Shown: positions 5,707 to 47,354 of the stretch, piece by piece
How the letters are laid out: each line of letters opens with the position of its first letter
Position numbering within the stretch: position 1 is the first letter of the stretch
Assembly: GCA_030432975.1 (NCBI GenBank)
Contig: JAUILS010000002.1
Span: 1 to 53,873 of the forward strand
Direction: 5' to 3'
Length of the DNA: 53,873 nucleotides
Source: Actinomycetes bacterium
GTDB lineage: Bacteria > Actinomycetota > Actinomycetes > Propionibacteriales > Nocardioidaceae
Translations under genes and position numbers: made by a program
The notes under the pieces: model-generated
Databases searched by the model: none
The model's input: only the letters and a program-made list of their open reading frames with translations
Told to the model about the DNA's origin: nothing

Positions 5707-8700
5707 CACCAGCTCCCCTGCTCGGACTGCAGCACCGGGCTCCACAGCCGCATCGCCAGCGCGCCGAACCGGTCGGTCTCGCCGGGATGCTCCTCGCCGT
5801 CGTGCGGCGGCTGGTCGGTGCCGGGCAGCGGGGCGCGGGGGCCGTAGACGCGGAGGTGTCCGGCGTCGGAGCACTCGCCGGGGAAGCGCCCGTCGTCCCA
5901 GTCGAAGCCCGCCTTGCGGCGTGCCTCGGTGACGGTCGCGTCGGTGCGGCGGAAGCGGGCGTAGGCGAACGACGCCTTGACCGGCAGCGGCAGCGGCTCG
6001 GTCAGCCCGCGGTCGCGCAGCTCGACCAGGTCGCGGAGCAGGTCGCGCGCCTGGTGGTCGGCGACCGGGCCCAGCAGCGAGACGGCGTGGTCGGCGTGGG
6101 AGCGGCTGTTGGACGGCCGGCCGACCGTGTGGGCGGTCCAGTTGCGGTCGGGGTCGGCGGCCGACAGCGCCAGCAGCCGCAGCCACGACTGGAGCCGGTG
6201 GCCGGCCCCGAGCCGGGAGTAGCTCACCGGGACCAGCCGGTCGCCGTAGACCTCCGGAACGGTGCCGCGCAGCCAACGGCCGCCGCCGAGGTCGACGTCG
6301 ACGTCAACGGCCGCGGCGGGGCGGGTACGCCGGTCGAGCGCGGCCCGCGCGAGGGGCACGGCGCGGTCGAGGATCTCGCCGAGCGACCGCCAGCCCAGCC
6401 TTCCGGGGGGCAGCACGCCGCGCCGCCACTCCTGCTCGCGGGCGGTCGGGGGCGGCACGCCGGCGAGCAGGTCGTCGACCAGCCGCTCGCCGACCCCCCA
6501 CTGGGCGAGCTGGTCGATCTCGACCGGCAGGCCGTCGAGCGGCTGGTCCTCCTCGTAGGTCAGGGCGACGTCGAGGCGGGTGCGGAGGAAGTCGCGCACC
6601 GGGTGACGGAAGAAGCGGAGCAGGTCGTCGAGGGCGACCTCCGGCTGGGGCTGCGGTCGGAGTGGGCCGGGCAGGAACGCCGGTGGAGGCGTGCGTGGGC
6701 CGGCGGCCGCGCGAGCCCCGGCGACAGCAGTGGTGTCGAACGTGAACGGCCGGTCGCCGACCAGCGCTCCCGGCTCGGCGTTGCGACGGTCGAAGGACTG
6801 CAGCGGGTGGCGGACCGTGACCGCGCGGCTGACCGGACCGTCGGGGCCGGCGGCGGTGTCGTCGAGGGCGTCGAGGAGCTCGCCCAGCGGGACCGCGGGT
6901 GGCCGCGGCTGGCCGGAGTAGGGGTCGGCGCCGGTGTAGGTGACGACCAGAGTCTCGGTGGCGGCCATGATCGCGTCGAGGAGCAGCTGGCGGTCCTCGC
7001 TGCGCGGGTCGCGCTCGCCGGTGACGGGGTCGCGGGCCAGCAGGTCGTCGCCGTCGACGACGCCGGCGCGCGGGAAGACGCCGTCGTCGAGGCCGAGCTG
7101 ACAGACGACGCGGTGCGGCACCGAGCGCATCGGCACCATGGTGCAGACGGTGAGGGTGCCGGTGCGGAAGTTGGCCCGGGTGGGCCGGCCGGCGAGGCGG
7201 TGGCCGAGCAGCGCCCGGACGTCGGGGAGCCGCAGGTCGCCGCCGGTCGGGCCCGCCTCGGTGGCGATGCGGGACAGCTCGCGCTGCACCTGGCCGGGCT
7301 GCCAGGCGTCGTCGGGCGCTACGTCGGTGAGCGCGTCGACGCCGTCGCCGAGAGCCCGCAGCCAGTGGTCGAGCGGGTGGCTACCCACCAGCGCGTCGGT
7401 GGCGGTCACCAGCCGGTCGACGTACTCCGCGAGGCGGCCGGCCAGGTCGATCTGGGCGCTGCCGACGTCGTCGAGGGGGAGGGTGCGGTCGAGCCAGGTC
7501 TGCGCGTCGGCCGACATCGTGACGCCGGCGAGCACCCGGTCGAGGCCGAACCGCCAGGTGTTCTGGACGACCTCGGCGAGCCCGAAGTCGGCGCGGTGCT
7601 CGGCGTCGAAGGCCCAGCGCACGCCGGAGTCACGCGCCCAGGTGGCGAGCTGCTCGAGGTCGTCGTCGGTGAACCGGAAGCGGCGCCGCACCGGCGGCGC
7701 GTGGGCCAGGTCGAGCACCTCGCTCGCGGTGGCGCGGCCACCCGCGAGGTCGAGCAGCCGGGAGGCGACCGAGAGCAGCGGGTTGGTCTGGGTGAGCGCC
7801 CGGTCGGCGAGCCGCACCCGAAGGCGATGGGCCGGGTGGCCGGCCTCGCCGACGACCTCGGCCAGCCCGAACCCGGCCTGGATCAGCGGGGCGTAACTCT
7901 CGATGTCGGGGCACATCACGAGGATGTCGCGCGGCTCGAGCGTGGGGTCGTCGGCGAGCAGCCCCAGCAGCACCTCGCGGAGCACCTCGACCTGGCGGGC
8001 CGGGCCGTGGCAGGCGTGCACCTGCACGCTGCGGTCGTCGCGCGCGGCCGTGCGTGCGGCGGCGCGGCCGGTGGCGTTGGCGGCCAGGTCGGACTGCAGC
8101 CAGCCGAGCAGGGTGTCGGGCCGGCTGGGGTCGTTGCGGGCCTCGGTGGTCGCCCAGGCGGCGGGGGCGAGCGTGCGCTGCAGCTCACGGGTGTCGCGGC
8201 CCAGGGTGGCCAGCAGCGGGTGGGCGACGCGCTCGTGGCTGTCGTCGTCGCGCCGCGGGACGGGGCCGGGCAGGTCCTCGAGCGCCTGCCAGAGGGCCTC
8301 CGACGGGTGCGGCAGCCAGAGGTGGACGTCGCGGTGCTCGGCGAGGGCTCCGAGCAGCTCGACCTCGGTGGTCGGCAGCCGGGTGTGCCCGAACAGCGAG
8401 AGCCGCTGGGGCAGGTCGACGGCGTCGGGCTCGTCGGCGAGGCGGGCCAGGGCGGCGGCGTGGAGCTCGTGGGGTGGTGGGGCGTCGACGCGCGCGACGA
8501 GGCGGCGCCACAGCGGCGGCTGCCAGGCGAGATCGTCGGGGACGGCGGCGTCGGTGCCGTCGCTGTCGGTGCCTGCGGTCCAGTCGGCGAGGACCTGCGG
8601 GCGCTGCTGGGCGTAGGCCGCGAACAGGCCGGCGAGCCGGCGCGCCACGGCGTACCTCCGGCCCCGGCGCTGGTCGCCCGCCTCTCCGGTCAGCCCGTGG

Positions 8701-9056
8701 CCGAGGTGGCGGGCGAGAGTGTCGGCCCAAGGCTCGTCGAGGCAGGCGTCGAGCACGCCGAGGACCGCCCAGGCGAGCGGGTCGGGCGCCCACGGGTCGT
8801 CGTCGCGGGTGCCGGTGATCTCGGCGCGGAGGGACCAGGGGGTGCGGAAGTCGACGCCCGCGCAGACGCCGTCGTCTGCGGGGGCGGCTGCGCCAAGGAT
8901 GTGGGAGAGGCGTTGGGAGAGCCACCGCTCCATGCCCCGCGCCGGGACCACCACCACCTCGGTGGCGAACGGGTCGGCCATCGGGGTGACCAGCAGCGCT
9001 GCGACGCCGTCGGCGAGGACGTCGGCGCGCCCGGCCCGATGGAGGTGCAGTCCCAC
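5706..9056 (-). CDS. recC: Exodeoxyribonuclease V gamma subunit RecC
   Basis: About 1116 residues starting [22 protein letters not shown]. It has the RecC N-terminal pattern [23 protein letters not shown], then [46 protein letters not shown] and, near residue 630, [18 protein letters not shown], all characteristic of RecC. RecC is helicase-like but catalytically inactive; it splits the duplex and recognises Chi inside RecBCD. Two GTG starts are possible (9065 or 9056). I chose 9056 because TAGGGT sits exactly seven bases upstream, the leaderless spacing used at other genes here; that hexamer would overlap the 9065 codon. RecC is the first gene of the recC-recB-recD operon, and the product has the usual length of the family. 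The divergent fhs gene lies across a 309-base spacer. Confidence 0.93.
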
Positions 9057-9063
9057 GCACGGC

Positions 9064-9069
9064 ACCCTA
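9064..9069 (-). promoter_or_regulatory. -10 element for leaderless recC
   Basis: TAGGGT, seven bases, then GTG at 9056. This fits TANNNT-N7-start and selects the shorter recC start. No convincing -35 was seen. Confidence 0.45.
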
Positions 9070-12445: not shown

Positions 12446-14509
12446 GTGCGTGGAGAGCGGGGGATGGCCCGCCTGATCCTCCCCGCGGTCGTCGCGCTGA
12501 CGGTGTGCAGCCTCTTCCTCGGGTTCGTCTGGTCGCAGGCGGCCCCCAGCCCGGAGCCCACGCCGAGCCAGGCCGCGGTGGTCGACCCTGTCCTGAACAC
12601 GCCGACGACGGTCGTCGACGCCGACACCGGCAAGCCGCTCCCCGCCGGCTGGGTCGCGGAGATCGGCGGCGACGCCGACCCGCACCGCGTCGACGGACGC
12701 GGCCGCGTCACCCTGCGGCTCGACGCCCCCACCCTGATCCGGGTCGGCGCACCCGGGTACGCCGAGCGCGTCCTCGCGGTGGCCCCCGGACAGCAGCCGG
12801 CCGTCGACCTGGTGCGGCGTACCGCCGACAGCCTCTCCATCCGCTTCGGCGGCGACGTGATGCTGGGCCGCCGCTTCTACGAGCCGCTGGCGAACGGCGA
12901 GACCCGCCTCGAGGGCGGGGCCGGCGTCCAGCAGCACCTCGCGGTGCTCCAGGAGATCACCCCACTGCTCGGCGACGCCGACCTGACCGTCGTCAACCTC
13001 GAGACGTCGCTGGTGCGCGACCCCTACTTCCGCGGCACCCGCCCGCAGCGCTTCCACCAGACCAAGGACCTGGTCTTCGCGACCGCGCCCGCGGCGGCCA
13101 TCGCCCTCAAGCGCGCCGGCGTCGACGTCGTCGACCTCGGCAACAACCACGTGTACGACGCCCTCGGTGCCGGCCTCGACTCCACCCTGCGCACCGTCGA
13201 GGCGGCCGGGCTGGCGCACTTCGGAGCGGGGCGGACGCCCGAGGAGGCCTGGCGCCCGGCGTACGTCGAGGCACGCGGCCAGACCATCGCGTTCATCGGC
13301 TGCACCACCGTCACGGGTGACGCCCACCCCGTGCTCTACGTCGCGTCCGAGACCCAGGGCGGCGCGGCAGACTGCGCGCCGACGCCGATGCGCCGCGCCA
13401 TCGCCACCGCGCAGGCCGAGGCCGACACCGTCGTCGTGATGATGCACGGCGGCACGGAGTACCAACAGACCCAGGATCGCGAGGTCCGCGAGCTCAGCTC
13501 CGTCGCCGCCGACGCCGGCGCGACGCTCGTCGTCAACGGACACCCGCACGTGATCGGCGGCGTGGTCCGCGACGGTGACGCGCTCGTCGCCGAGACGCTG
13601 GGCAACCTGGTGTTCGACCAGAACCTCTGGTCGACGCTGCGGTCCTACCTGCTCCGCGTCGACCTGCGCGACGGCGCCCCGGTGCGCACCGTCGCCGACC
13701 CGTTCGCGATCTCCGACTACGCGCCGGTGCCGACCACCGGCGCGCTGGCCGACTCCTCCGCCCGGGTCGCGGCGGGGCTGCTCGAGGGGCCGCTGCTGCT
13801 CGGCTCGGGCGCCGCGACGACGACCCGCCTCCCGACCGCCGGCACCCCGCCGATCACCGGCGCCGCGGGCGAGGTGGTGCCGCTGCCGCCCGGCGCCTGG
13901 CTGACCGCCGGCCAGGACGGCGTCCTCCTCGGCGAGGACCTGCTCTACGGCACGGGCAGCATCGAGCGGATGGACACCGGCACCGACGGCGGCACCCCGC
14001 TGCTGTGGAGCCTGGGGAAGTACACCCAGGTCGGCAACGACGCCGCCTGCACCGGCAGCCGCGGCCTGCACGCCGTCCGCCAGCCCGCCCGCGACTTCGA
14101 CGTCGTCGCCTACCCGGCCCACCGGGTGCCGGTCTCCCCCGGCGACCGGCTGAGCCTCGTCGTCAGCGTGGCGAAGGCCTCGCGCGGCGCCCAGGCCGAG
14201 ATCCGGTGGTACGCCGAGATGGCCGGCGCCAGCAAGGACGTCGTGGTGCTGCCCCTCGGCCCGACCGACGGCCCGGCCGACGGCGACTGCCGGCAGGTGC
14301 GGCTCGACGTGGTCGTGCCCGACGGCGTGACGGCCGCGCAGCCCTATCTCCGGCTCGGCGACCCCGGCGGCGTCACCCGCGCCGGCGAGGTGATGGCCGA
14401 CGACATCCGACTCGTCCGCTGGGCCGAACCCGGTGCCGGCGGCCGCCTCTACGACGTCGTCGACTTCCAGCGCGACACCACCGTCGCCCCCGCCACCGAC
14501 GCCCGCTGA
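12446..14509 (+). CDS. Secreted CapA-like protein (PGA_cap metallophosphoesterase fold)
   Basis: 687 residues. An N-terminal signal/anchor (ARLILPAVVALTVCSLFLGF) precedes a Pro-rich linker and a carboxypeptidase-regulatory-like domain (VVDADTGKPLPAGW to about residue 120). The CapA domain starts near 131 with RFGGDVMLGRRF and has NLETSL, DVVDLGNNHVYDALGAG, VMMHGGTEY and NGHPHVIGG, the metal-site motifs of the family. The last 200 residues look like a beta-sandwich appendage. CapA proteins act in poly-gamma-glutamate synthesis, but no capB/capC is nearby. Actinobacterial homologues of this layout are generally uncharacterised, so a capsule role is not claimed. GTG at 12446 fits the leaderless pattern; the ATG at 12464, with GGAGAG six bases upstream, is equally plausible and gives a cleaner signal peptide. 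Confidence 0.82.
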   Translation: MRGERGMARLILPAVVALTVCSLFLGFVWSQAAPSPEPTPSQAAVVDPVLNTPTTVVDADTGKPLPAGWVAEIGGDADPHRVDGRGRVTLRLDAPTLIRVGAPGYAERVLAVAPGQQPAVDLVRRTADSLSIRFGGDVMLGRRFYEPLANGETRLEGGAGVQQHLAVLQEITPLLGDADLTVVNLETSLVRDPYFRGTRPQRFHQTKDLVFATAPAAAIALKRAGVDVVDLGNNHVYDALGAGLDSTLRTVEAAGLAHFGAGRTPEEAWRPAYVEARGQTIAFIGCTTVTGDAHPVLYVASETQGGAADCAPTPMRRAIATAQAEADTVVVMMHGGTEYQQTQDREVRELSSVAADAGATLVVNGHPHVIGGVVRDGDALVAETLGNLVFDQNLWSTLRSYLLRVDLRDGAPVRTVADPFAISDYAPVPTTGALADSSARVAAGLLEGPLLLGSGAATTTRLPTAGTPPITGAAGEVVPLPPGAWLTAGQDGVLLGEDLLYGTGSIERMDTGTDGGTPLLWSLGKYTQVGNDAACTGSRGLHAVRQPARDFDVVAYPAHRVPVSPGDRLSLVVSVAKASRGAQAEIRWYAEMAGASKDVVVLPLGPTDGPADGDCRQVRLDVVVPDGVTAAQPYLRLGDPGGVTRAGEVMADDIRLVRWAEPGAGGRLYDVVDFQRDTTVAPATDAR

Positions 14510-19248: not shown

Positions 19249-20244
19249 TCAGGCGAGCAGCTCCAGCACGGCCTTCTCGGCGGCCTCCTGCCTGCGAGCC
19301 GGGCTGCGGAAGGCTCGCTGCGGCATCTCCATGACCGTCCCGGACTCGTAGAGGTCGAGCACCCGCGGGTCGATGTAGGAGCTCTTCGCCACCGTCGGGG
19401 TGTTGCCGAGGTACGACGCCACCTCGGCCACCGCCGACCGGACCGCCCGCTTCCGCGAGGCCGCCGAGCCGCCCGCCTCCGGGGTCTCCGCGAGGGCGAG
19501 GGCGGCCAGCACCGTGGCGTGCCAGGTGCGGAAGTCCTTGGCGGTGAAGTCGCCCTCGAAGAGCTCGTCGAGGTAGTCGTTGACGTCGGCCCCGGTGAGC
19601 GGCCGCCACCGGCGCCCGTCCTTCCAGGCCAGCAACCGCGAGTCCCCGCCGCGTCGCCGGCGCAGCGGCTGCAGCGCGGCCGCCACCTCGGGGTCCTCGA
19701 TCAGCACCTCGTGCTCGACGCCGGACTTGCCGGTGAAGCAGAAGCGCAGGCCGCGCGGCGTCTGTCGCACGTGGTCGCGCTGGAGCGTGGTGAGACCGAA
19801 GGAGCCGTGCGCGTCGGCGTACACGTCGGAGCCGATGCGGAAGTAGCCCTGGTCCAGCAGGCGCACCGCGATCGCCAGGGCATGGTCGCGGGTCGGCTCC
19901 CCGAGCTGGAGGTCGCGCCGCACCCGGCGGCGTACGCGCGGCAGCTCGGCGGCCGCCTCGCGCACCCGGTCGAACTTCTTGCGGTCGCGGAGCACCCGCC
20001 AGTAGGGGTGGTAGAGGTACTGCCGACGCTCCGCCTCGTCGGTGCCGACGGCCTGGAGGTGCCCGTTGTCGAAGCGGCAGATCCACACGCCCGACCACGC
20101 CGGGGGGATGGCGAGCGAGACGATCCGCTCGACCGCGACGCCCTCCAGCCGCGCGCCCCGCTCGTCGAGGTAGACGAAGCCGCGTCCCGCCCGCCGGCGG
20201 GTCCAGCCCGGGTCGTGCGGCGAGACCGTGCGCAGTCTGGGCAT
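19249..20244 (-). CDS. DNA topoisomerase IB (poxvirus/bacterial type)
   Basis: 331 residues from the ATG at 20244, chosen because AGGAGG lies eight bases upstream; the GTG two codons earlier would be too close to it. The N-terminal domain has IPPAWSGVWICRFDNGHLQA and YHPYWRVLRDRKKF, and the catalytic domain has FRIGSDVYADAHGSFGLTTL, FTGKSGVEHEV, KDFRTWHATV and the Tyr motif KSSYIDPRVLDLY with the nucleophile near residue 290. The Arg/Lys/His/Tyr set of type IB enzymes is present. It relaxes supercoils through a 3'-phosphotyrosine intermediate. Bacterial IB enzymes are patchily distributed and non-essential. Confidence 0.93.
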   Translation of the reverse strand: MPRLRTVSPHDPGWTRRRAGRGFVYLDERGARLEGVAVERIVSLAIPPAWSGVWICRFDNGHLQAVGTDEAERRQYLYHPYWRVLRDRKKFDRVREAAAELPRVRRRVRRDLQLGEPTRDHALAIAVRLLDQGYFRIGSDVYADAHGSFGLTTLQRDHVRQTPRGLRFCFTGKSGVEHEVLIEDPEVAAALQPLRRRRGGDSRLLAWKDGRRWRPLTGADVNDYLDELFEGDFTAKDFRTWHATVLAALALAETPEAGGSAASRKRAVRSAVAEVASYLGNTPTVAKSSYIDPRVLDLYESGTVMEMPQRAFRSPARRQEAAEKAVLELLA

Positions 20245-20315
20245 CGACACTCCCTCCTCCTCCGACCCGGGCGGTACCCGCTCGGGCGTCGAGCCACGCG
20301 CGTGGCGGCGCCGGA

Positions 20316-38110: not shown

Positions 38111-38596
38111 TCACCCGGGGAAATGATCGGGATCAACGGCCGGGGAGGTCTTCTTCAATTCTGTGAAGCGTGCGTAGGCGGAGTCGTACAACTTCTGAGC
38201 CACCCGGAGATCCGTGGCGGTAGGACCCGTTCGAGGTAGGTCGTAGTTTGAGTCGCGCATTGCGTCTTGGACGGCCTCAAAGCCGACGCGAGAGGAGTTG
38301 TGGGCACCCGCACGCTCGGCCGGTTTGACAGCGGCAATGAACGTCGAAAGGCCCGCCGCTGCAATGGTGAGCGCCGCCGCCCAGGCCGTGTGGTCCGCGA
38401 CAACCGTCAATGTGCTGATAGCCGCGGCGAAAGCTGCCGCCCAAGCAGTCCACAGCGCTGCGGATGCCCACCGCCCCGCGCGCCGCGCATGCGGCCCAGT
38501 CCGTGACCACGAAGCGAGTTCGACAAGCTCCATCTTGACCCGTAGCTGATGCGCTCGCGTTGACATGTCATCGGGCCTGCTGTTCGCACTCTCCAT
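38111..38596 (-). CDS. SLATT-like two-TM effector-type protein, orphan
   Basis: 161 residues from the ATG at 38596, with GGGAG five bases upstream. A short N-terminal helix (MSTRAHQLRVKMELVELASW) precedes TM1 (about 42-66, ASAALWTAWAAAFAAAISTL) and TM2 (about 70-90, WAAALTIAAAGLSTFIAAV), joined by a very short loop. The C-terminal helical part has KPAERAGAHNSSRVGFEAVQ, DAMRDSNYDL and AQKLYDSAYARFTELKK. The 2TM-plus-helix layout and the A-x-x-H...F-x-x-V...D pattern resemble SLATT domains, the pore-forming effectors in CBASS-like and other nucleotide-signalling defence systems. No SMODS/CD-NTase or SLOG gene is adjacent. GC is about 60 percent in the lines I counted, lower than the flanks. Family call moderate; defence role is inference. 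Confidence 0.5.
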   Translation of the reverse strand: MESANSRPDDMSTRAHQLRVKMELVELASWSRTGPHARRAGRWASAALWTAWAAAFAAAISTLTVVADHTAWAAALTIAAAGLSTFIAAVKPAERAGAHNSSRVGFEAVQDAMRDSNYDLPRTGPTATDLRVAQKLYDSAYARFTELKKTSPAVDPDHFPG

Positions 38597-38808
38597 GATC
38601 GCTCCCATCGTCCGAGTCCCAGGAAGTCTCACGCTGATTGTCTCGTCCGGGTGCCGACGCCCAAAAAGGGTCGCGTTGCGCGGATGGCGGCGCCGCCGGA
38701 TCCAATCTTGCCCTCCCTTGCTGAAATACGGCCGCGGGCGCACGCGGCGGTAGGGCAGAGCGGGGGCGCAGGCTAGACGGCGATATGGGCCACACGCGTC
38801 ACGGGGAA

Positions 38809-39034: not shown

Positions 39035-39976
39035 TCAGCGCAGCAGCGCGTCCACCCAGACCATCTTGTCGACGACGGCGGGGGCGAGCACGAACGGGTA
39101 GAGGTCGCCGTGGCCGAGCGAGCGGTTCATCTGGTTGAGCGCCGCGGAGAGCGGGACCCAGGTGCCGCCGACGACGTCGCCGAAGTCGCGGGTGGCGAGC
39201 TGCGGGTCGACGCTGAGGCCGGTCTGATGCGCGGTCTCGAGCGCGTCGCGGATGTGCAGCACGTGGGCGAAGGTCTCGGCGAAGTCCTCCCAGGGATGCA
39301 TCGTGGCGTACGCCGACACGAAGCTCTCCTCCCAGCCGGCGGGCGGTCCCTGGGCGTAGTGACGGTCGACCGCGTCGGCGTACGACGCCCGCTCGTCACC
39401 GAAGACGGCGCGGAAGGCCTCGACGTCGCCTCCCTCGACCAGCACCGTCCAGTAGTAGTGGCCGATCTCGTGGCGGAAGTGACCGAGCAGGGTGCGGTAG
39501 GTCTCGCCCAGGTCGAGCCGGACCTTCTCGCGGTGCACGGTGTCGCCCTCGGCCAGGTCGAGGGTGATGATGCCGTTGGCGTGGCCGGTGGTGACGTCCT
39601 CGGCGACGCTGGAGAGAAGGTCGAAGGCCAGCCCCCGCTCGGTGTCAGGGTCGTGCGGCTCCACGGGCAGCCCGATCCGGTCGAGCTCGTAGAGCAGCCG
39701 CCGCTTGGCCTGCTCAGCCCGGTAGTACTGCGGCAGGCCCTCGAGGTCGCCGTCGTTCGGCCGGGTGCGGGTGAGCGAGCAGGCGAAGCACTGCTCGCCG
39801 GCGACGTCGGGGATCCAGTTGCATCCGTTGAGGTCGAGGTTGACGCACCCGGCGAGCCCGTCGAGGGGCCGCAGGTCGCGCTCGACACGGGAGTAGCCGA
39901 GGGCGCGGCCGCAGCGCAGGCAGACGGTGTTCTCGTAGGCGAGCGTCTGGCCGCAGACGCAGGTGAAGGAACGCAC
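39035..39976 (-). CDS. Zinc-ribbon metallopeptidase (Peptidase_Mx-like)
   Basis: 313 residues from the GTG at 39976, with TAGGGT six bases upstream. The N-terminal zinc ribbon C-V-C-G...C-L-R-C (about 6-24) is followed by NLDLNGCNWIPDVAGEQCFAC and the protease motif GHFRHEIGHYYW near residue 165 (HExxH), with ESFVSAYATMHPWEDFAETFAHVLH supplying the third ligand region. This matches the putative zinc-binding metallopeptidase family that is often beside transglutaminase and ATP-grasp/alpha-E genes. The -10 hexamer overlaps the stop codon of the upstream transglutaminase gene, so it may be transcribed separately as well as by read-through. Confidence 0.85.
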   Translation of the reverse strand: MRSFTCVCGQTLAYENTVCLRCGRALGYSRVERDLRPLDGLAGCVNLDLNGCNWIPDVAGEQCFACSLTRTRPNDGDLEGLPQYYRAEQAKRRLLYELDRIGLPVEPHDPDTERGLAFDLLSSVAEDVTTGHANGIITLDLAEGDTVHREKVRLDLGETYRTLLGHFRHEIGHYYWTVLVEGGDVEAFRAVFGDERASYADAVDRHYAQGPPAGWEESFVSAYATMHPWEDFAETFAHVLHIRDALETAHQTGLSVDPQLATRDFGDVVGGTWVPLSAALNQMNRSLGHGDLYPFVLAPAVVDKMVWVDALLR

Positions 39977-39982
39977 CGGACG

Positions 39983-39988
39983 ACCCTA
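39983..39988 (-). promoter_or_regulatory. -10 element for metallopeptidase gene, overlapping the upstream stop codon
   Basis: TAGGGT, six bases, then GTG at 39976. Its TAG is the stop codon of the transglutaminase gene, an economical internal promoter. Confidence 0.5.
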
Positions 39989-40912
39989 CGGGGTGGTGGG
40001 TTGCCCGCCCGGCTGCCCGGCCGGGTCCCCGTCCGAGACCGGCACCACGTCCACCTCCACGGCCATCGTCGACTCGGTCGCCTCGGTGAAGATGACGCCC
40101 TTCACCGGCGGCACGTCGGCGTAGTCGCGGCCCCACGCGACGGCGATGTGCCGGTCGCCGGTCTCGGTGTCGTTGGTGGGGTCGACCGACAGCCAGCCGT
40201 GGCCGGGGATCCAGCACTGCACCCAGGCGTGGGTGGCGTCGGCGCCGACCAGCCGCGGCTGCCCCGGCGGCGGGTCGGTGGCCAGATAGCCGCTGACGTA
40301 GCGGGCAGCGAGGCCGTGGCTGCGCAGCCCGGCGATGGCGACGTGGGCGAAGTCCTGACAGACCCCGCCGCGCAGCCGCAGCACCTCGGGCACGCGGGTG
40401 CTGACGCTGGTGGCCTCGGGGTCGTAGTCGAACTCGTCGTGGATGCGGTGCACCAGGTCGAGCACCGCCTCGACCAGCGGGCGGCCGGGGGTCAGCGACC
40501 GGCCGGCGTACTCGTGGACCTCGGGGCCGAGGTCGACCAGCGGCGAGCCCAGCGTCACCTCCGCGACCAGCGCCGCCTCGGGCAGGTCGCCGCGGCCGAG
40601 CGGGCGGGCGTCCTCCCAGCGCACCTCGGCCCGAGCCGGATCGGGCTCCTCGAGGCCGCAGTCGACGACCGAGCGGGCGCCGACCCGGAGGGTGCGGTGC
40701 GGCTCGGTGACGTGGAAGTACGTCGCGTGGTTGCCCTGCGCGTCGAGGTGGCCGCCGAGGTCGGCGTGCCCGGGGTCGGTCCACAGCTCGTGCTCGACCA
40801 CGGCCTGGCCGCCACCGTCGCGCGGCCGGCAGTAGGCGAGGCCGAAGGAGTCGGTGACGTCGTCGTCGTAGGTGTACGTCGTCACATGGGAGACCTGGTA
40901 GCGCCGGCTCAT
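39986..40912 (-). CDS. Transglutaminase-like cysteine protease-fold protein
   Basis: 308 residues starting MSRRYQVSHVTTYTYDDDVT, the usual beginning of bacterial transglutaminase-like proteins with the N-terminal domain. The catalytic core has RLRGGVCQDFAHVAIAGLRS (Cys near residue 180), GADATHAWVQCWIPGHGW (His) and LSVDPTNDTETGDRH (Asp), a complete Cys-His-Asp triad. The family is predicted to form, cleave or transfer amide bonds in peptides. Its ATG overlaps the stop of the ATP-grasp/alpha-E gene as ATGA, so expression is coupled. It is third in the DUF2126, ATP-grasp, transglutaminase, peptidase order. Confidence 0.92.
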   Translation of the reverse strand: MSRRYQVSHVTTYTYDDDVTDSFGLAYCRPRDGGGQAVVEHELWTDPGHADLGGHLDAQGNHATYFHVTEPHRTLRVGARSVVDCGLEEPDPARAEVRWEDARPLGRGDLPEAALVAEVTLGSPLVDLGPEVHEYAGRSLTPGRPLVEAVLDLVHRIHDEFDYDPEATSVSTRVPEVLRLRGGVCQDFAHVAIAGLRSHGLAARYVSGYLATDPPPGQPRLVGADATHAWVQCWIPGHGWLSVDPTNDTETGDRHIAVAWGRDYADVPPVKGVIFTEATESTMAVEVDVVPVSDGDPAGQPGGQPTTP

Positions 40913-43497
40913 GACGCCACCCCCGTCGCCCGCAGCCGCAGCGCCGGGCCGAGCGGCCGGGGCGCGACCGGGTGCCAGAACCAGGTGGCCGCCACCGCGT
41001 CGGACAGCGCGGCCAGCCCCTGCTCGAGCTGCCCGCAGACCTCGACCAGCGCCTCGCGCCGCGCCAGGTGGAAGTGCTCGACGTCGCCCTCGGCGGCGGT
41101 GGGCGCGGCGAGCTGGGGGCCGGTGTGCGAGGCGAGCAGCCCCGCCAGCTCGTCGAGCCGTGCGGTGACCCGCTCGACGCGGCCGCCGCCGGGGAGCCGG
41201 CCGAGGTCGGCGCGGACCCGGTTGAGCTGGAAGGCGACCGACCGCGGGTTGCTCTCGTCGAGCAGCAGGAGGTCGAGCATCGTCTCGACGCCCTGCGTGC
41301 CGGCCGACCGGCGGCGGTGGGTGAGGACGCTCTCGGCGGCGGTGAGCACCGACGTGACGAGGTGCCGCTCGATCCACAGCGGCTGCGCCTCCCCCATCGT
41401 CCACTTCACCAGCGTGGTCAGCTGGGTGGCGCGCTCGATGCCGCGACCGATGTCGAGGAGGTGCCATCCGACATCGTGGACCATGTTCTCGACGGTGATG
41501 CCGGCCAGCGCGAGGGTGCCGGAGAGCACCTGGCTGCCGGCGTCGAGGATCTGCGGGCCGCGGACGACGGGGGCCTCGGCGAGCCCGTCGAGGGCGCGGT
41601 CGATCCCGCCGATGACCGTGAAGACGTCGGTGGACAGCTGGTCGCGCACGGCGCCGGTCGCGCCGGTGAGCGCCTCGATGGCCTGCGCGACCGAGCCCGG
41701 GCGGCTCTCGTCGACCAGCAGCGCACGCAGCTCGGCGTCGAGGGCGGAGTCGGCGACGGCCGTCTCGCCGACGAAGCCGGGATAGGTCGCGGTCGCGTGG
41801 GTGAGCGCCCGCGCCAGCACGTCGACCGCACCACGCCCCGGGTCGGCGTACCAGACGGGGAGCTCGGTCGCGAGCCGGCGCAGCGCCAGCAGGTGCCGGG
41901 TGGTGCCCTCGGCACGCTCGGTGTAGCGGCCCATCCAGTAGAGGTTCTCCAGGGCGTGCGGCACCATCGGCACGCCCGCCGGCGCGGCGACGGCGTGCTC
42001 GGCCGGACCGGGGAGGCCGCCCGCCCCCTCGCCCGCCTTGAGCACCCAGACGTCCTTGCTGAGCGGCACCCGCTCGCGGCGACCGGTGGCGGCGTCGAAC
42101 GTGTCGGGCACGATCCGGCCCAGGGCCCCCGGCAGCACGGCGTACGACGACCGGTGGGCGACCCCGAACAGCCGTAGCGTCAGCGGTCGCGCGCCCAGCC
42201 CGAAGCCGGCGACGGTCGGTGTCGTCGAGAGCGGTAGCACCTCCTGGCCGACGTAGCCGCCCGGGTCGGCCCGCAGCCGGTCGCGCCAGCCCTCGCGCTC
42301 CTCCTCGCTGAGCCCGGGCCCGAAGGCGCCACGGTCGCGGCCGGGGTTGACCGGCCGGATCACCAGCCGGTCGAGGTGGGAGACCAGATGGTCGAGCCCG
42401 GCGGGGGTGCCGCCCCACCAGGCGTCGGCCGACGGCAGCAGCAGGCTCTCGTCGAGCAGCGCCTCGCACAGGGCCGGGAGCAGCGGCGCGAACGCCGGCG
42501 ACTCGACCAGCCCCGCGCCGAAGCCGTTGGCGCAGACGACCGCCCCGCGCCGGCAGGCCTCGAGGAAGCCGGGCACGCCCAGCTCGGAGTCGGGCCGCAG
42601 CTCCAGCGGGTCGCACCACACGTCGTCGACGCGGCGCAGCACCACGTCGACCGGCCGGCGGCCGTCGAGCTCGCGGGTCCAGACCCGCCCCTCGCGCATC
42701 TCGAGGTCGGCGCCGGTCACCAGGGGGAAGCCCAGCAGGGAGGCGATGTAGGCCTGGTCGAACGCGGTCTCGCTGTGCCGGCCGGGGGTGAGCACCACGA
42801 CCCGCGGGCCCTCGATGCCGGGCGCCGCCAGGTCGGTCAGCGCGTCGCGCACGACCCCGAAGTACGCCGTCAGCCGGTGCAGCTCGGCCGACTGGTAGGC
42901 GTCGGGGAGCAGCCGGGCCACCACTCGCCGGTTCTCCATGGCGTAGCCCAGCCCCGACGGCGCCTGGGCGCGGTCGCTGATCACCCGCCACGATCCGTCG
43001 GCGGCGCGGCCCACGTCGGTGGCGGCGACGACCAGCCGGGGCCGGCCGGCGGGCAGCCCCCAGGCGGGGCGGACGTAGCCGTCGAGCCGCCAGAGGAGCT
43101 CGGGCGGCACCAGCCGCGAGGTGAGCAGCCGGCGCGGGCCGTAGAGGTCGGCGAGCACCGCCTCGAGCAGCCGCGCGCGCTGGCTCGCCCCGCGCTCGAG
43201 GTCGGACCACTCGTCGTGGGTGAGGACCGTCGGCAGCGGGTCGAGCCGCCACTCGGTCAGCCCGCCCCGGCGGGCGAGCGCGTCGCCGGTGGCGGTGGCC
43301 GGCAGCGGGTTGTAGGTGACGCCGTCGTCCTCGAGCAGGCGGTGGGCCTGGCTGCGGGCGGCGCGGAAGGACTCGGCGTCCCAGGTGTCGAGGGCGAGCG
43401 TCTCCCAGCCGGGTCGCGGGTCGCCGTCGGCGCCGACGAGCTCGTCGTAGCGGCTGCCGACCGCGTCGCGGTAGGGGCCGAGGAACGCTGCCGTCAC
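40909..43497 (-). CDS. Circularly permuted ATP-grasp / alpha-E fusion protein
   Basis: 862 residues from the GTG at 43497. The N-terminal 480 residues are a circularly permuted type 2 ATP-grasp domain (DUF404/DUF407): RLDGYVRPAWGLPAGRPRLVV, SGLGYAMENRRVV, VVVLTPGRHSETAFDQAYIA, FGAGLVESPAFAPLLPALC and VIRPVNPGRDRGAFGP. The C-terminal half is the alpha-E domain (DUF403), ENLYWMGRYTERAEGTTRHL, LLLLDESNPRSVAFQLNRV. ATP-grasp enzymes make peptide or amide bonds; permuted versions with alpha-E are predicted from genome context (Iyer and Aravind's amidoligase work) to act in peptide synthesis or tagging with transglutaminases. Fusion of both domains in one chain is common in actinobacteria. One base separates it from the DUF2126 gene stop. 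Confidence 0.93.
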   Translation of the reverse strand: MTAAFLGPYRDAVGSRYDELVGADGDPRPGWETLALDTWDAESFRAARSQAHRLLEDDGVTYNPLPATATGDALARRGGLTEWRLDPLPTVLTHDEWSDLERGASQRARLLEAVLADLYGPRRLLTSRLVPPELLWRLDGYVRPAWGLPAGRPRLVVAATDVGRAADGSWRVISDRAQAPSGLGYAMENRRVVARLLPDAYQSAELHRLTAYFGVVRDALTDLAAPGIEGPRVVVLTPGRHSETAFDQAYIASLLGFPLVTGADLEMREGRVWTRELDGRRPVDVVLRRVDDVWCDPLELRPDSELGVPGFLEACRRGAVVCANGFGAGLVESPAFAPLLPALCEALLDESLLLPSADAWWGGTPAGLDHLVSHLDRLVIRPVNPGRDRGAFGPGLSEEEREGWRDRLRADPGGYVGQEVLPLSTTPTVAGFGLGARPLTLRLFGVAHRSSYAVLPGALGRIVPDTFDAATGRRERVPLSKDVWVLKAGEGAGGLPGPAEHAVAAPAGVPMVPHALENLYWMGRYTERAEGTTRHLLALRRLATELPVWYADPGRGAVDVLARALTHATATYPGFVGETAVADSALDAELRALLVDESRPGSVAQAIEALTGATGAVRDQLSTDVFTVIGGIDRALDGLAEAPVVRGPQILDAGSQVLSGTLALAGITVENMVHDVGWHLLDIGRGIERATQLTTLVKWTMGEAQPLWIERHLVTSVLTAAESVLTHRRRSAGTQGVETMLDLLLLDESNPRSVAFQLNRVRADLGRLPGGGRVERVTARLDELAGLLASHTGPQLAAPTAAEGDVEHFHLARREALVEVCGQLEQGLAALSDAVAATWFWHPVAPRPLGPALRLRATGVAS

Positions 43498-43498
43498 G

Positions 43499-46400
43499 CT
43501 AGCCGCCCCACGCCCTCGGGACCTGGCGTCGCAGGTCGAGGGTGTGGGGGTACTCGGCGGACCGGGTGCGGCGCGCCTCGGCCTCGACGGCCGCCACGTC
43601 GACCTCCCCGGTCATGAACCCACGCTCCTCGAAACGGCTGGCCCGCCGCGCCTCCGCCTCCTGGGCGTTGACGGGGGGCACGTCGTAGGACCTACCCCCG
43701 GGGTGCACCACATGGTAGGTGCAGCCGCCGAGCGAGAGACGGCGGGACAGGTCGACGACATCGAACTGCAACGGGGAGTGGACGCCGATGGTCGGGTGCA
43801 GCGCGGAGTGCGGCTGCCAGGCGCGGTAGCGCACCCCCGCGACCAGCTCGCCGGTGCGGCCCGTCGGGGTCAGCGGGAGCGGGACGCCGTTGCAGGTGAC
43901 CGCGTGCCGGCCGGGCACCGCGGAGGAGACGCGCACCTGGAGCCGCTCGACCGAGGAGTCGACGTAGCGGGCGGTTCCGGTGCCGGTGGCCTCCTCGCCG
44001 AGCACCCGCCACGGCTCGATGGCCTGGCGCAGCTCGAGCTCGACGCCACCGCGCACGACGGTGCCGATGCGAGGGAAGCGGAACTCCAGGAACGGCGCGA
44101 ACCACTCCTCCTCCAGCGGGAAGCCGTGGGCGCGCAGGTCGGCGACGACCTCGGCGATGTCGGCCTCCGCCCCATAGGGCAACAGGAAGCGCTCGTGCAG
44201 CTCGGTGCCCCAGCGGATCAGCGGGGCGACGTACGGCGACTCCGCGAAGCGCGCCACCAGCGCCCGCACCAGCAGCGCCTGCACCAGCCCCATCTGGGCG
44301 TGCGGCGGCATCTCGAAGCCGCGCAGCTCCAGCAGCCCGAGGCGGCCCCGCGAGGAGTCGGGGCTGTAGAGCTTGTCGATGCAGAACTCCGCCCGGTGGG
44401 TGTTGCCGGTCAGGTCGGTGAGCAGGTGGCGCAGCGCCCGGTCGACCACCCACGGCGGGCACTCGCCGTCGTCGCGGGTGAGCCGCTCGATCTCGGCGAA
44501 GGCGATCTCCAGCTCGTAGAGCGACTCGGGCCGCCCCTCGTCGACCCGCGGCGCCTGGCTGGTCGGGCCGACGAAGCGGCCGGAGAACAGGAACGACAGG
44601 CTCGGGTGGTGCTGCCACCAGGTGAGCATGCTGACCAGCAGGTCGGGGCGCTGCAGCATCGGCGAGCGCTCGGGCGCGGGCCCGCCCAGCGTCAGGTGGT
44701 TGCCACCGCCGGTGCCGGTGTGGAGGCCGTCGAGGTCGAACTTCTCGGTGCCGAGCCGGGCCTGGCGGGCCACGTCGTAGAGCAGCTCGGTGACCCGGGT
44801 GAGCTCGCCCCAGGACGCGGTCGGCTGCAGGTTGACCTCGATGACGCCCGGATCGGGCGTGACCATCAGCGAGACGACGCGGGGGTCGGGCGGCGGGCCG
44901 TAGCCCTCGATGACGAGGGGGACGCGGACGTCGGCGACGGTCTCGTCGACCAGGGCGAGCAGGGCCGCGAAGTCGTCGAGGTGGTCCAGCGGCGGGAGGA
45001 AGAGATGGACGAAGCCGTCGCGAGCCTCGACGACCAGGGCGGTGCGGGGCGCGTCGGCGGCCTCGTCGACCGGGAGCACCCTGGCGTGCGGGCGGCCGTG
45101 GCCGAGCGGCTCGCGCTCGTGGAGGTACGACGGCTCCGGGTCGACGCGTGGGTCCACCCAGGACACCGAGTCGAGCGGGAGGCGCAGGCCCGCCGGGGAG
45201 TCGCCGGGGAGCAGCACCAGCCGGCCCCGCCGGAAGCGCCACTGCGGGCTCACCCAGGCGCCCTCGCCCTCCTCGTCGGGGTGGAGCGGGAGCACCCACG
45301 CGACCGGGTCGCCGGCCGCCTCGTCGAGCCTCGCCACGTCGGCGAGGGTCGGCTCGTCCGCGTCGGGCGGGTCGCCGGCCGGCCGGCGTACGTCGGCTAC
45401 GAGGGTGGCGAGCGGGTCCTCGTGGGCCGCCACGACCTGGTCGAGCGGCAGCCCGAGGCGCTCGGTCAGCGCCGCCGCGAGCAGCTCGGCCGCCCGGTCG
45501 GCCTCGTCGTCGGGCTCGTCGGCCCACGGGTCGGCGAGCAGCTCGGGGTGCTGCCACAGCGCGACGCCGTCGGTGCGCCAGAGCAGGGCGATCTGCCAAC
45601 GGGGCAGCGGCTCGCCCGGGTACCACTTGCCCTGGGCGCGCTGGACCACGGCGCCGAGCCCGAACACCTCGCCCAGCCGCCGCGCCAGGTCGGTGGCCAG
45701 CTCGCGCTTCTCGGGTCCGTCGGCGTCGGTGTTCCACTGCGGGCTCTCCATGTCGTCGATCGACACGAAGGTCGGCTCGCCGCCCATGGTGAGCTCGAGG
45801 TCGGCCTCGGCCAGCCGCTCGTCGACCAGCTCGCCGACGTGCTGCACGCGGTGCCACTGGTCGGGGGTGTAGGGCAGGGTGACCCGCGGGTCCTCGTGGA
45901 AGCGGGTGACGACGTTGGCGTAGTCGAGGGTCGACTCGCACGGGTCGACCAGCCCGGTGATCGCCGCGGCGCTGGTGGGGTGCGGCGTCGCGGACAGCGG
46001 GATGTGCCCCTCCCCCGCGAACAGCGCGGAGGTCGGGTCGAGACCGATCCAACCGGCGCCGGGCACGAACACCTCGGTCCAGGCGTGCAGGTCGGTGAAG
46101 TCGGCGGTCGGGCCGCTGGGGCCGTCGAGGGCCTCCTGGTCGGCCGCGAGCTGGACGAGGTAGCCGGAGACGAAGCGCGCGGCCAGGCCCAGCTCGCGCA
46201 GCACGCTGACCAGCAGCCAGGCGGAGTCACGACACGAGCCGATGCCGATCTGCAGCGTCTCGTCGGGCGTCTGCACGCCGGGCTCGAGGCGGATGGTGTA
46301 GCCGACGGCGTCGTGGACGGTCTTGTTGACGTGCCAGAGCAGGTCGACGATCGGGCGGCCGCCGAGGTCGCCGAGCCTGTCGACGAGGGCTCGGACCAAG

Positions 46401-46804
46401 GGGCCCGGGCCGGCACTCACCCCGGAGGGGCCGCCGGGCTCGGGGACGCTGCGCAGGTAGGGCTCGAGGTCGACGGCCTGGTCGCCGTACGGGAACGGGT
46501 AGTGCTCGGCCCACTCCTCGACGAAGAAGTCGAACGGGTTGATCACCTGGAGGTCGGCGATCAGCCCGATCACGACCTCCAGCCGGTCGGTCTTCTCCGG
46601 GAACACCAGCCGGGCGACGTGGTTGCCGAACGGGTCCTGCTGCCAGTTGAGGAAGTGCTCCTCGGGGATGACGGTCATCGAGTAGGCCTCGATCGGCGTC
46701 CGCGAGTGCGGCGCCGGCCGCAGCCGCACCGAGTGCGGGCCCAGCGAGACGCGCCGGTCGAAGGTGTACGTCGTCCGGTGCTCGATCGACACCTTGATGC
46801 CCAT
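43499..46804 (-). CDS. Large DUF2126/transglutaminase protein
   Basis: 1101 residues. The ATG at 46804 has TAGGGT six bases upstream (leaderless layout). Residues about 1-300 are a transglutaminase domain: IEHRTTYTFDRRVSLGPHSV, GIGSCRDSAWLLVSVLRELG (catalytic Cys), TDLHAWTEVFVPGAGWIG (His) and LDPTSALFAGEGHIPL (Asp). The remaining 750 residues are DUF2126: LTMGGEPTFVSIDD, KRELATDLARRLGEVF, KWYPGEPLPRWQI, HTGTGGGNHLTLGG and DGECPPWVVDRALRHLLTDL, family landmarks. It is first in the four-gene operon. DUF2126 has no known activity; the setting points to amide-bond chemistry. All expected catalytic residues of the transglutaminase part are present. Confidence 0.93.
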   Translation of the reverse strand: MGIKVSIEHRTTYTFDRRVSLGPHSVRLRPAPHSRTPIEAYSMTVIPEEHFLNWQQDPFGNHVARLVFPEKTDRLEVVIGLIADLQVINPFDFFVEEWAEHYPFPYGDQAVDLEPYLRSVPEPGGPSGVSAGPGPLVRALVDRLGDLGGRPIVDLLWHVNKTVHDAVGYTIRLEPGVQTPDETLQIGIGSCRDSAWLLVSVLRELGLAARFVSGYLVQLAADQEALDGPSGPTADFTDLHAWTEVFVPGAGWIGLDPTSALFAGEGHIPLSATPHPTSAAAITGLVDPCESTLDYANVVTRFHEDPRVTLPYTPDQWHRVQHVGELVDERLAEADLELTMGGEPTFVSIDDMESPQWNTDADGPEKRELATDLARRLGEVFGLGAVVQRAQGKWYPGEPLPRWQIALLWRTDGVALWQHPELLADPWADEPDDEADRAAELLAAALTERLGLPLDQVVAAHEDPLATLVADVRRPAGDPPDADEPTLADVARLDEAAGDPVAWVLPLHPDEEGEGAWVSPQWRFRRGRLVLLPGDSPAGLRLPLDSVSWVDPRVDPEPSYLHEREPLGHGRPHARVLPVDEAADAPRTALVVEARDGFVHLFLPPLDHLDDFAALLALVDETVADVRVPLVIEGYGPPPDPRVVSLMVTPDPGVIEVNLQPTASWGELTRVTELLYDVARQARLGTEKFDLDGLHTGTGGGNHLTLGGPAPERSPMLQRPDLLVSMLTWWQHHPSLSFLFSGRFVGPTSQAPRVDEGRPESLYELEIAFAEIERLTRDDGECPPWVVDRALRHLLTDLTGNTHRAEFCIDKLYSPDSSRGRLGLLELRGFEMPPHAQMGLVQALLVRALVARFAESPYVAPLIRWGTELHERFLLPYGAEADIAEVVADLRAHGFPLEEEWFAPFLEFRFPRIGTVVRGGVELELRQAIEPWRVLGEEATGTGTARYVDSSVERLQVRVSSAVPGRHAVTCNGVPLPLTPTGRTGELVAGVRYRAWQPHSALHPTIGVHSPLQFDVVDLSRRLSLGGCTYHVVHPGGRSYDVPPVNAQEAEARRASRFEERGFMTGEVDVAAVEAEARRTRSAEYPHTLDLRRQVPRAWGG

Positions 46805-46810
46805 GGCCAG

Positions 46811-46816
46811 ACCCTA
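46811..46816 (-). promoter_or_regulatory. -10 element for leaderless DUF2126 operon
   Basis: TAGGGT, six bases, then the ATG at 46804. This marks the probable promoter of the ATP-grasp/transglutaminase operon. Confidence 0.5.
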
Positions 46817-46892
46817 GGCCGTGGATGTCACGACCGTGTTTCGGTGTCCGGCCCGGCGTGTGGGCCCCGGCCGGTGGCCCTCGCGGCGCGGG

Positions 46893-47354
46893 TCAGCCGC
46901 TGCCGCCGACGTCGAACTCGTAGGCCTCGTAGACCAGGTCGGCGCCGCGCTGCCGGTGGCCCATCAGGAGGTTGAGCACCGCGGTGCCCGCGTCGCGCAC
47001 CGCGCGGACGTCGACGTCCGGACCGCCGACGAGGTCGAGCAGCGCGGCCACCTGCTCCTGCATCGTCTCGTGCTCCGCGGTCAGCTGGGCGACCGGTCCG
47101 GACAGTCGTGGGGCCGCGACGACGAGCTCGCGGTGGAGTCCGTCGGGCCCCTCCGTCACCGCGATGTGCTCCCGCAGGCCGACCTCCAGCCCCCGGACGG
47201 CGGCCCGCACCTGCTCCGCCCAGCGGCCGGCCTGGCCGTTGGACGGAGCGGCCAGGGCGAGCTCCAGGTCGCTCATCGCCGCTCTCAGCTCGACGCGACG
47301 CTGCCGCAGCGTCGTGCCGAGATCCCGGTCGAGGTCTGTCGAGTGCGAAGACAT
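46893..47354 (-). CDS. Hemerythrin-like helical protein
   Basis: 153 residues from the ATG at 47354, preceded by GGAGGGCGTC. Predicted four-helix protein: VRGLEVGLREHIAVTEGPDGLHRELV, LTAEHETMQEQVAALLDLV and LLMGHRQRGADLVYEAYEFD supply the spaced His/Glu residues of a hemerythrin-type di-iron site (H...E...H...E, H). The final GHRQRGADLVYEAYEFDVGG block is conserved in actinobacterial relatives as I recall. It could sense oxygen or store iron. A GATAAT hexamer at 47396-47401 is a possible -10. It is transcribed toward the DUF2126 operon but has its own start region. Confidence 0.7.
   Translation of the reverse strand: MSSHSTDLDRDLGTTLRQRRVELRAAMSDLELALAAPSNGQAGRWAEQVRAAVRGLEVGLREHIAVTEGPDGLHRELVVAAPRLSGPVAQLTAEHETMQEQVAALLDLVGGPDVDVRAVRDAGTAVLNLLMGHRQRGADLVYEAYEFDVGGSG

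Follow-up and report, generated by a model that had tools for sequence, protein, structure and literature searches.

Does the compact four-gene locus carried by this Nocardioidaceae bacterium encode a system that forms amide bonds, and if so, which of its proteins would form them and under what condition? We analysed the 53,873-nucleotide stretch of DNA containing the locus (hereafter the window), which belongs to a 3.43 Mb genome assembled in 358 contigs (92% complete). The genes are arranged in a tight operon on the minus strand and transcribed in the order A, B, C, D (Table 1). Their place and order, as well as the coupled or abutting arrangement described in the first-pass annotation, were confirmed by the ORFs, by Pfam matches far over cut-off and by the junctions themselves: a single nucleotide separates A from B, B and C share 4 nt (ATGA) and 9 nt separate C from D. 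Gene A matched DUF2126 (1145 bits) together with Bact_transglu_N and Transglut_core, gene B matched CP_ATPgrasp_2 (412 bits) and Alpha-E (201 bits), gene C matched Bact_transglu_N and Transglut_core, and gene D matched Peptidase_Mx (326 bits) and Zn_ribbon_DZR_6. An NCBIfam search returned no matches. DUF2126 and Mx each occur in one copy in the genome.

Table 1 Positions in the window of the operon genes, their domains and the adjacent sequence elements
Feature	Position	Strand	Description
Gene A	43499..46804	(-)	TGase-like N-terminal part (residues 6-257) and DUF2126 putative amidoligase (residues 287-1092)
DUF2126 domain of gene A	43529..45946	(-)	Remaining bond-forming candidate in the operon
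Gene B	40909..43497	(-)	Predicted inactive (pseudo) circularly permuted ATP-grasp fused to alpha-E
Alpha-E domain of gene B	40978..41967	(-)	Pfam match and family signature
Gene C	39986..40912	(-)	TGase-like cysteine peptidase/transferase, triad intact
Gene D	39035..39976	(-)	Zinc ribbon (8 conserved Cys) and Peptidase_Mx with HExxH
Candidate GlnR-type box	46827..46842	(-)	GAAAC-n6-GTGAC (AC-n9-AC), -38 to -23 from gene A start
-10-like TAGGGT	46811..46816	(-)	Six nt before gene A ATG, leaderless-type promoter element
Hemerythrin-like gene	46893..47354	(-)	Outside the system

All catalytic residues that could be checked had been reported as present. This held for the transglutaminase (TGase) triads of gene A (C191/H240/D256) and gene C (C185/H228/D244), both conserved in ≥95% of homologues (89 for gene A), and for the HExxH motif of gene D (H169-E170, H173), whose zinc ribbon cysteines are also present, but not for the ATP-grasp domain of gene B (described below). 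DUF2126 had been called unknown, yet Pfam already names it a putative amidoligase. The broader description of a poorly characterised amide-bond set agrees with what is a conserved gene set, and the operon is the actinobacterial form of an already predicted DUF2126/ATP-grasp/alpha-E/TGase amidoligase system; its kind is not new.

A scan of GTDB genomes identified at least 584 DUF2126 relatives. The best 80 of these and nine further genomes gave 89 loci, which were compared with tblastn and by grouping their 3909 ORFs into clusters. The order DUF2126, fused ATP-grasp-alpha-E, TGase (A-B-C) recurred among them in Actinomycetota, Proteobacteria, Campylobacterota, Bacteroidota and Poribacteria, which excludes a gene set brought together by chance. 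The genes were not frequently separated, and no homologue with a different established function was found. DUF2126 was 51–68% identical to the window protein across phyla, with Nocardioides sp. 1609 (66%) the closest named relative among the matches listed. Its occurrence was patchy (4/13 genomes of the genus, 6/120 of the phylum sample). Among further conserved neighbours, Mx was present in 16 loci and a proteasome homologue of the Anbu type in 26. A stand-alone alpha-E was present in 48 loci, in most cases adjacent to a stand-alone ATP-grasp (53 such proteins). A literature search for mycobacterial homologues found nothing relevant.

The hemerythrin-like gene upstream had been proposed as an added partner. 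This was rejected, as a counterpart occurred in 0/89 loci and no similar ORF was found among the 3909 ORFs at E ≤ 10. An 88-nt gap parts it from gene A, which has a separate promoter-like element of its own. Directly downstream of the operon lies a 210-aa ORF (38114-38743, minus strand) with no Pfam match. Elsewhere, the window encodes a RecC-type exodeoxyribonuclease V gamma subunit (5709-9065, minus strand), a type IB DNA topoisomerase with a eukaryote-like catalytic core and a bacterial N domain (19252-20250, minus strand) and a PGA_cap protein of the CapA-like, poly-gamma-glutamate capsule family (12446-14506, plus strand), about 25 kb from the operon and with no evident link to it.

The ATP-grasp domain of gene B, previously taken for the bond-forming enzyme, aligned to PDB 3n6x (phmmer, 1e-64), with substitutions at sites where proteins of this fold conserve the residues that bind nucleotide and metal. 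We aligned 56 fused homologues with the 53 stand-alone ATP-grasps that these loci encode, 3n6x and the window protein, and scored 11 diagnostic residues (3n6x-fragment numbering: E125, N127, D283, D284, K285, G338, G341, D392, S424, Q426, G429). All 11 were present in 53/53 stand-alone proteins. Amongst the fused homologues, 41 kept none, 14 kept one and a single protein kept two, which equates to 9 to 11 losses in each. The window protein kept 0/11: it lacks the ExN metal ligand pair, DDK, the glycine loop, the D in HVDLRPF and NSSQGGG, and its ATP lysine is replaced by arginine (R381). Seven positions (E125, N127, D284, K285, G341, D392, N423) were retained in 0% of fused and 100% of canonical ATP-grasps. 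For glutathione synthetase, Asp130/Glu146/Glu386/Glu442 of the yeast enzyme and a lysine pair have been listed (PMC2845819), and by analogy of motifs with that enzyme, ExN would bind magnesium, and the lysines and glycine loop ATP.

In the maximum-likelihood tree, which was unrooted and had several long branches including that of the window protein, one branch (length 1.42, support 100) parted all fused from all canonical proteins. All fused proteins fall on one side of it, so the residue loss is old and shared rather than the decay of a single genome. The alpha-E half of gene B keeps its family signature (W21 R24 R28 ... G184 E188 R189, domain numbering; W..GR..ER present), as it does in both the fused and stand-alone groups. 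Residue loss, the single-branch split and retention of this signature together lead us to regard gene B as a pseudoenzyme whose conserved role is not catalytic, its ATP-grasp probably being no working ligase. No earlier mention of a pseudo-ATP-grasp was found in the literature searched; Iyer et al. 2009 lay outside this search and may contain one.

The AlphaFold model of the alpha-E domain (m569a4486e702, window 40912-41997; pLDDT 89) was all-helical with a repeated GRxxER motif and had no fold match in the PDB at E < 0.05; as modelled, this fold is perhaps undescribed so far. Four Campylobacterota loci (L026, L054, L060 and L063; Sulfurimonas/Sulfuricurvum/Sulfurovum) carried a short, strongly diverged stand-alone alpha-E of about 220 aa with a partial Pfam match, and the accompanying ATP-grasp formed its own branch.

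A canonical set was found at a second locus. Among 21 relatives, 5/5 genomes with DUF2126 had two alpha-E domains each, 15 without DUF2126 had none and one had the stand-alone set alone (Fisher test, P = 0.0003). Alpha-E was present in 52/52 DUF2126 genomes scanned, mostly as a fused copy in a long frame plus a second copy in a short frame; the exceptions were eight with stand-alone alpha-E alone (no fused gene B) and one MAG with the fused form alone. A canonical ATP-grasp was detected in 36/37 DUF2126 genomes checked (43–70% identity to the query), and fused proteins matched separately at 30–38%. This co-occurrence and the canonical matches indicate that DUF2126 goes with the canonical set, the fused gene B being an additional component. 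The comparison of loci suggests that this canonical form, encoded away from the operon, is the working ATP-grasp. In the genome studied here its gene is split by contig ends and lies on two other contigs (C358:3933-4955 and C43:5-547). On C43 the canonical fragment is followed by alpha-E and TGase genes, behind a 5-kb reverse-strand NHL-propeller gene. The latter (C43, locus L111, 1227-6020) encodes a 1598-aa NHL/teneurin-like beta-propeller on the opposite strand and interrupts the usual pairing of ATP-grasp with alpha-E-TGase.

Within the operon, DUF2126 would be the remaining bond-forming candidate. Its AlphaFold model (pLDDT 84) gave glutamine synthetase (GS) and Dop as top PDB matches in Foldseek, with a best E of 0.04 that is not significant. 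By eye, the DUF2126 motifs DPGVIEVN, TGTGGGNH, NTHRAEF and LLELR follow the order of PGQxEI, PGSGMH, NNRSAM and ELR in GS. Candidate residues for a GS-like active site are H703, E656, E826 and R828. Recognition of DUF2126 as a GS by profile, built from the genome's own three GS, failed (score 15.3 versus a shuffled mean of 14.0; best shuffle 22). Iyer and colleagues are said to have assigned DUF2126 in 2009 as GS-like and circularly permuted, an assignment we find plausible.

We further investigated when the operon might be expressed. The TAGGGT -10-like element puts the operon start at gene A, and four congeners have NAGGNT at almost the same position. Upstream of it, GTTAC-n6-GCAAC begins at -38 in three of these (L018, L099, L100) and GTCAC-n6-GAAAC at -50 in the fourth (L098). 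The consensus GTnAC-n6-GnAAC was thus found upstream of gene A in 4/4 congeners, accounting for four of the six such sites in 289 kb. The window carries GAAAC-n6-GTGAC at the same -38/-27 positions as L018, L099 and L100, with the half-sites swapped, a match made post hoc; across these four sequences 15/60 upstream columns were invariant, including both GnnAC half-sites and the -10 element. GlnR boxes on record include gTnAc-n6-GaAAc, t/gTAAC-n6-Gc/aAAC, GAAAC-n6-GTATC and an AC-n9-AC core (PMC10704036, PMC3662644). Judged by its sequence, the window box is a candidate GlnR-type site that GlnR may bind, and from -38 to -23 it could as feasibly serve repression as activation. No such box was found before gene A outside the genus, nor upstream of the canonical set in any of 16 actinobacterial genomes, and papers on the GlnR regulon of M. 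smegmatis and of Streptomyces do not name transglutaminases in their main text.

The canonical set has its own probable link to nitrogen. Sigma54-type sites (TGGCAY-N5-TTGCW) were found within 300 nt upstream of 11/48 canonical ATP-grasps compared to 8/843 control ORFs (P = 2e-10, a value that ignores kinship; the sites represent about seven lineages, and those of related species are not independent). These sites fit the NtrC-dependent induction of the Burkholderia cenocepacia H111 cluster I35_5080-83 (DUF404/407-DUF403-TGase-large TGase; PMC5491218), under NtrC/sigma54 control, and the induction of Pseudomonas putida Anbu under nitrogen limitation, as cited in PMC5666114 and PMC6376114. Nitrogen status probably controls the system, and the best clue to function is that two unrelated regulators both point to nitrogen.

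Taken together, we favour a two-locus amidoligase system under nitrogen control with gene B as a pseudoenzyme partner, to which we assign a probability of about 0.5. Nitrogen shortage would lead to expression of the operon, although the direction of this response is presumed. The canonical ATP-grasp-alpha-E pair (C358/C43) and DUF2126 would then form amide bonds at the expense of ATP, the targets being either small amino compounds or peptides and proteins, and the two TGase-fold cysteine enzymes together with Mx (Anbu in other lineages) would act on the product, processing or releasing it, and thereby mobilise the nitrogen of peptides or amines. Gene B would be an ancient duplicate that lost its metal and nucleotide residues and kept its fold and alpha-E, and more likely serves the active ligases as a scaffold or as an allosteric partner. 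This reading offers three handles for testing, namely active versus inactive subunits, the paired loci and a condition (nitrogen limitation, through GlnR or NtrC/sigma54). The stand-alone ATP-grasp and perhaps DUF2126 are expected to be active and the fused gene B inactive; if gene B is indeed a pseudoenzyme, assaying it alone would mislead. A wider generalisation is more tentative: across several phyla, a probably regulatory pseudo-ATP-grasp-alpha-E, the active pair and DUF2126 may constitute a widespread nitrogen-starvation response, a common amide-conjugation cycle independent of Pup that recycles nitrogen.

The nitrogen signals would also suit the use of amines or polyamines, in which DUF2126 gamma-glutamylates an amine like PuuA/GlnA and the peptidases free ammonia or glutamate under nitrogen starvation, with no protein tagging. 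Marine metagenomes have linked these domains to urea metabolism (PMC3597751), and the canonical ATP-grasp is annotated as glutathionylspermidine-synthase-like. However, the commonest conserved neighbour clusters contained no recognisable amine transporter, oxidase or aldehyde dehydrogenase, and four hydrolases suggest peptide bonds, so we consider amine use rather unlikely.

Pup-like tagging of proteins for degradation by Anbu or the 20S proteasome is a little less probable again. Iyer et al. 2009 predicted it, according to PMC6376114 and PMC5666114, and Anbu-type proteins (identity checked against PDB Anbu entries for one member) were found in 23/56 genomes. However, none was found in the window's genome or in the genus members searched, and many other DUF2126 loci also had none. 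According to PMC6376114, Anbu cleaved none of the peptides tested and bound no operon partner. The genome does encode a 20S proteasome pair, but on another contig (C308), unlinked to the operon. Mx was found in 20/55 genomes, plus fragments. Mutual exclusion of Anbu and Mx was considered and rejected (both in 5/55 genomes, neither in 17; P = 0.09); as genomes carry Anbu, Mx, both or neither, the peptidase partner is variable. In nine methanotroph loci (L039, L040, L042, L057, L059, L064, L078, L095, L097) a ParA/MinD-like ATPase was found between the TGase genes beside Anbu.

It is improbable that gene B forms the bonds with its own fused ATP-grasp, by means of altered metal and nucleotide ligands. 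The match to 3n6x is at fold level over 446 residues, and the fused domain retains some active-site-like residues, including the ATP lysine in 86% of homologues and the equivalents of Q, R394, K431 and D432, alongside new conserved acids (E243; E332, 53/56; E419, 44/56); given these, an altered activity is possible. Against a ligase stand the seven key residues absent from every fused protein, the missing lysine and glycine loop in the window protein and the canonical copy present in nearly all genomes. A small peptide-like metabolite made from a ribosomal precursor, which the combination of ligase and peptidase might suggest, is very unlikely, as no conserved small ORF was found nearby (save ORFs shadowing a neighbouring gene in Methylococcaceae), and the spread of highly identical proteins over many phyla speaks for a part in core physiology.

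Several known systems share some features with the operon and differ from it in others. The best PDB matches of the DUF2126 model, GS and Dop, belong to the GS/PafA-Dop superfamily, and the motifs PGxxE, GxGxxH and ExR are similar, but the resemblance is not significant by fold or sequence. Gene B has the fold and domain order of the glutathionylspermidine/glutathione synthetase-type ATP-grasps (3n6x; PMC2845819) and differs from them in lacking the metal and nucleotide residues, all of which its canonical partners keep. The B. cenocepacia H111 cluster, expressed when nitrogen is limiting, likewise combines a DUF404/DUF407 ATP-grasp, a DUF403 alpha-E, TGase and a large TGase protein, the last of which we infer to be a DUF2126 protein; however, ATP-grasp and alpha-E are separate genes there and no Mx was reported (PMC5491218). 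The Anbu operon is composed of ATP-grasp, alpha-E, TGase and Anbu (Iyer 2009; Valas & Bourne 2008, described in PMC6376114 and PMC5666114). Its ATP-grasp, alpha-E and TGase come from the same families, and 26/89 loci contain both DUF2126 and Anbu. The window operon differs in possessing Peptidase_Mx in place of Anbu and in the fusion of its ATP-grasp, which has lost its catalytic residues, to alpha-E, whereas the canonical set resembling the Anbu operon resides at the other locus.
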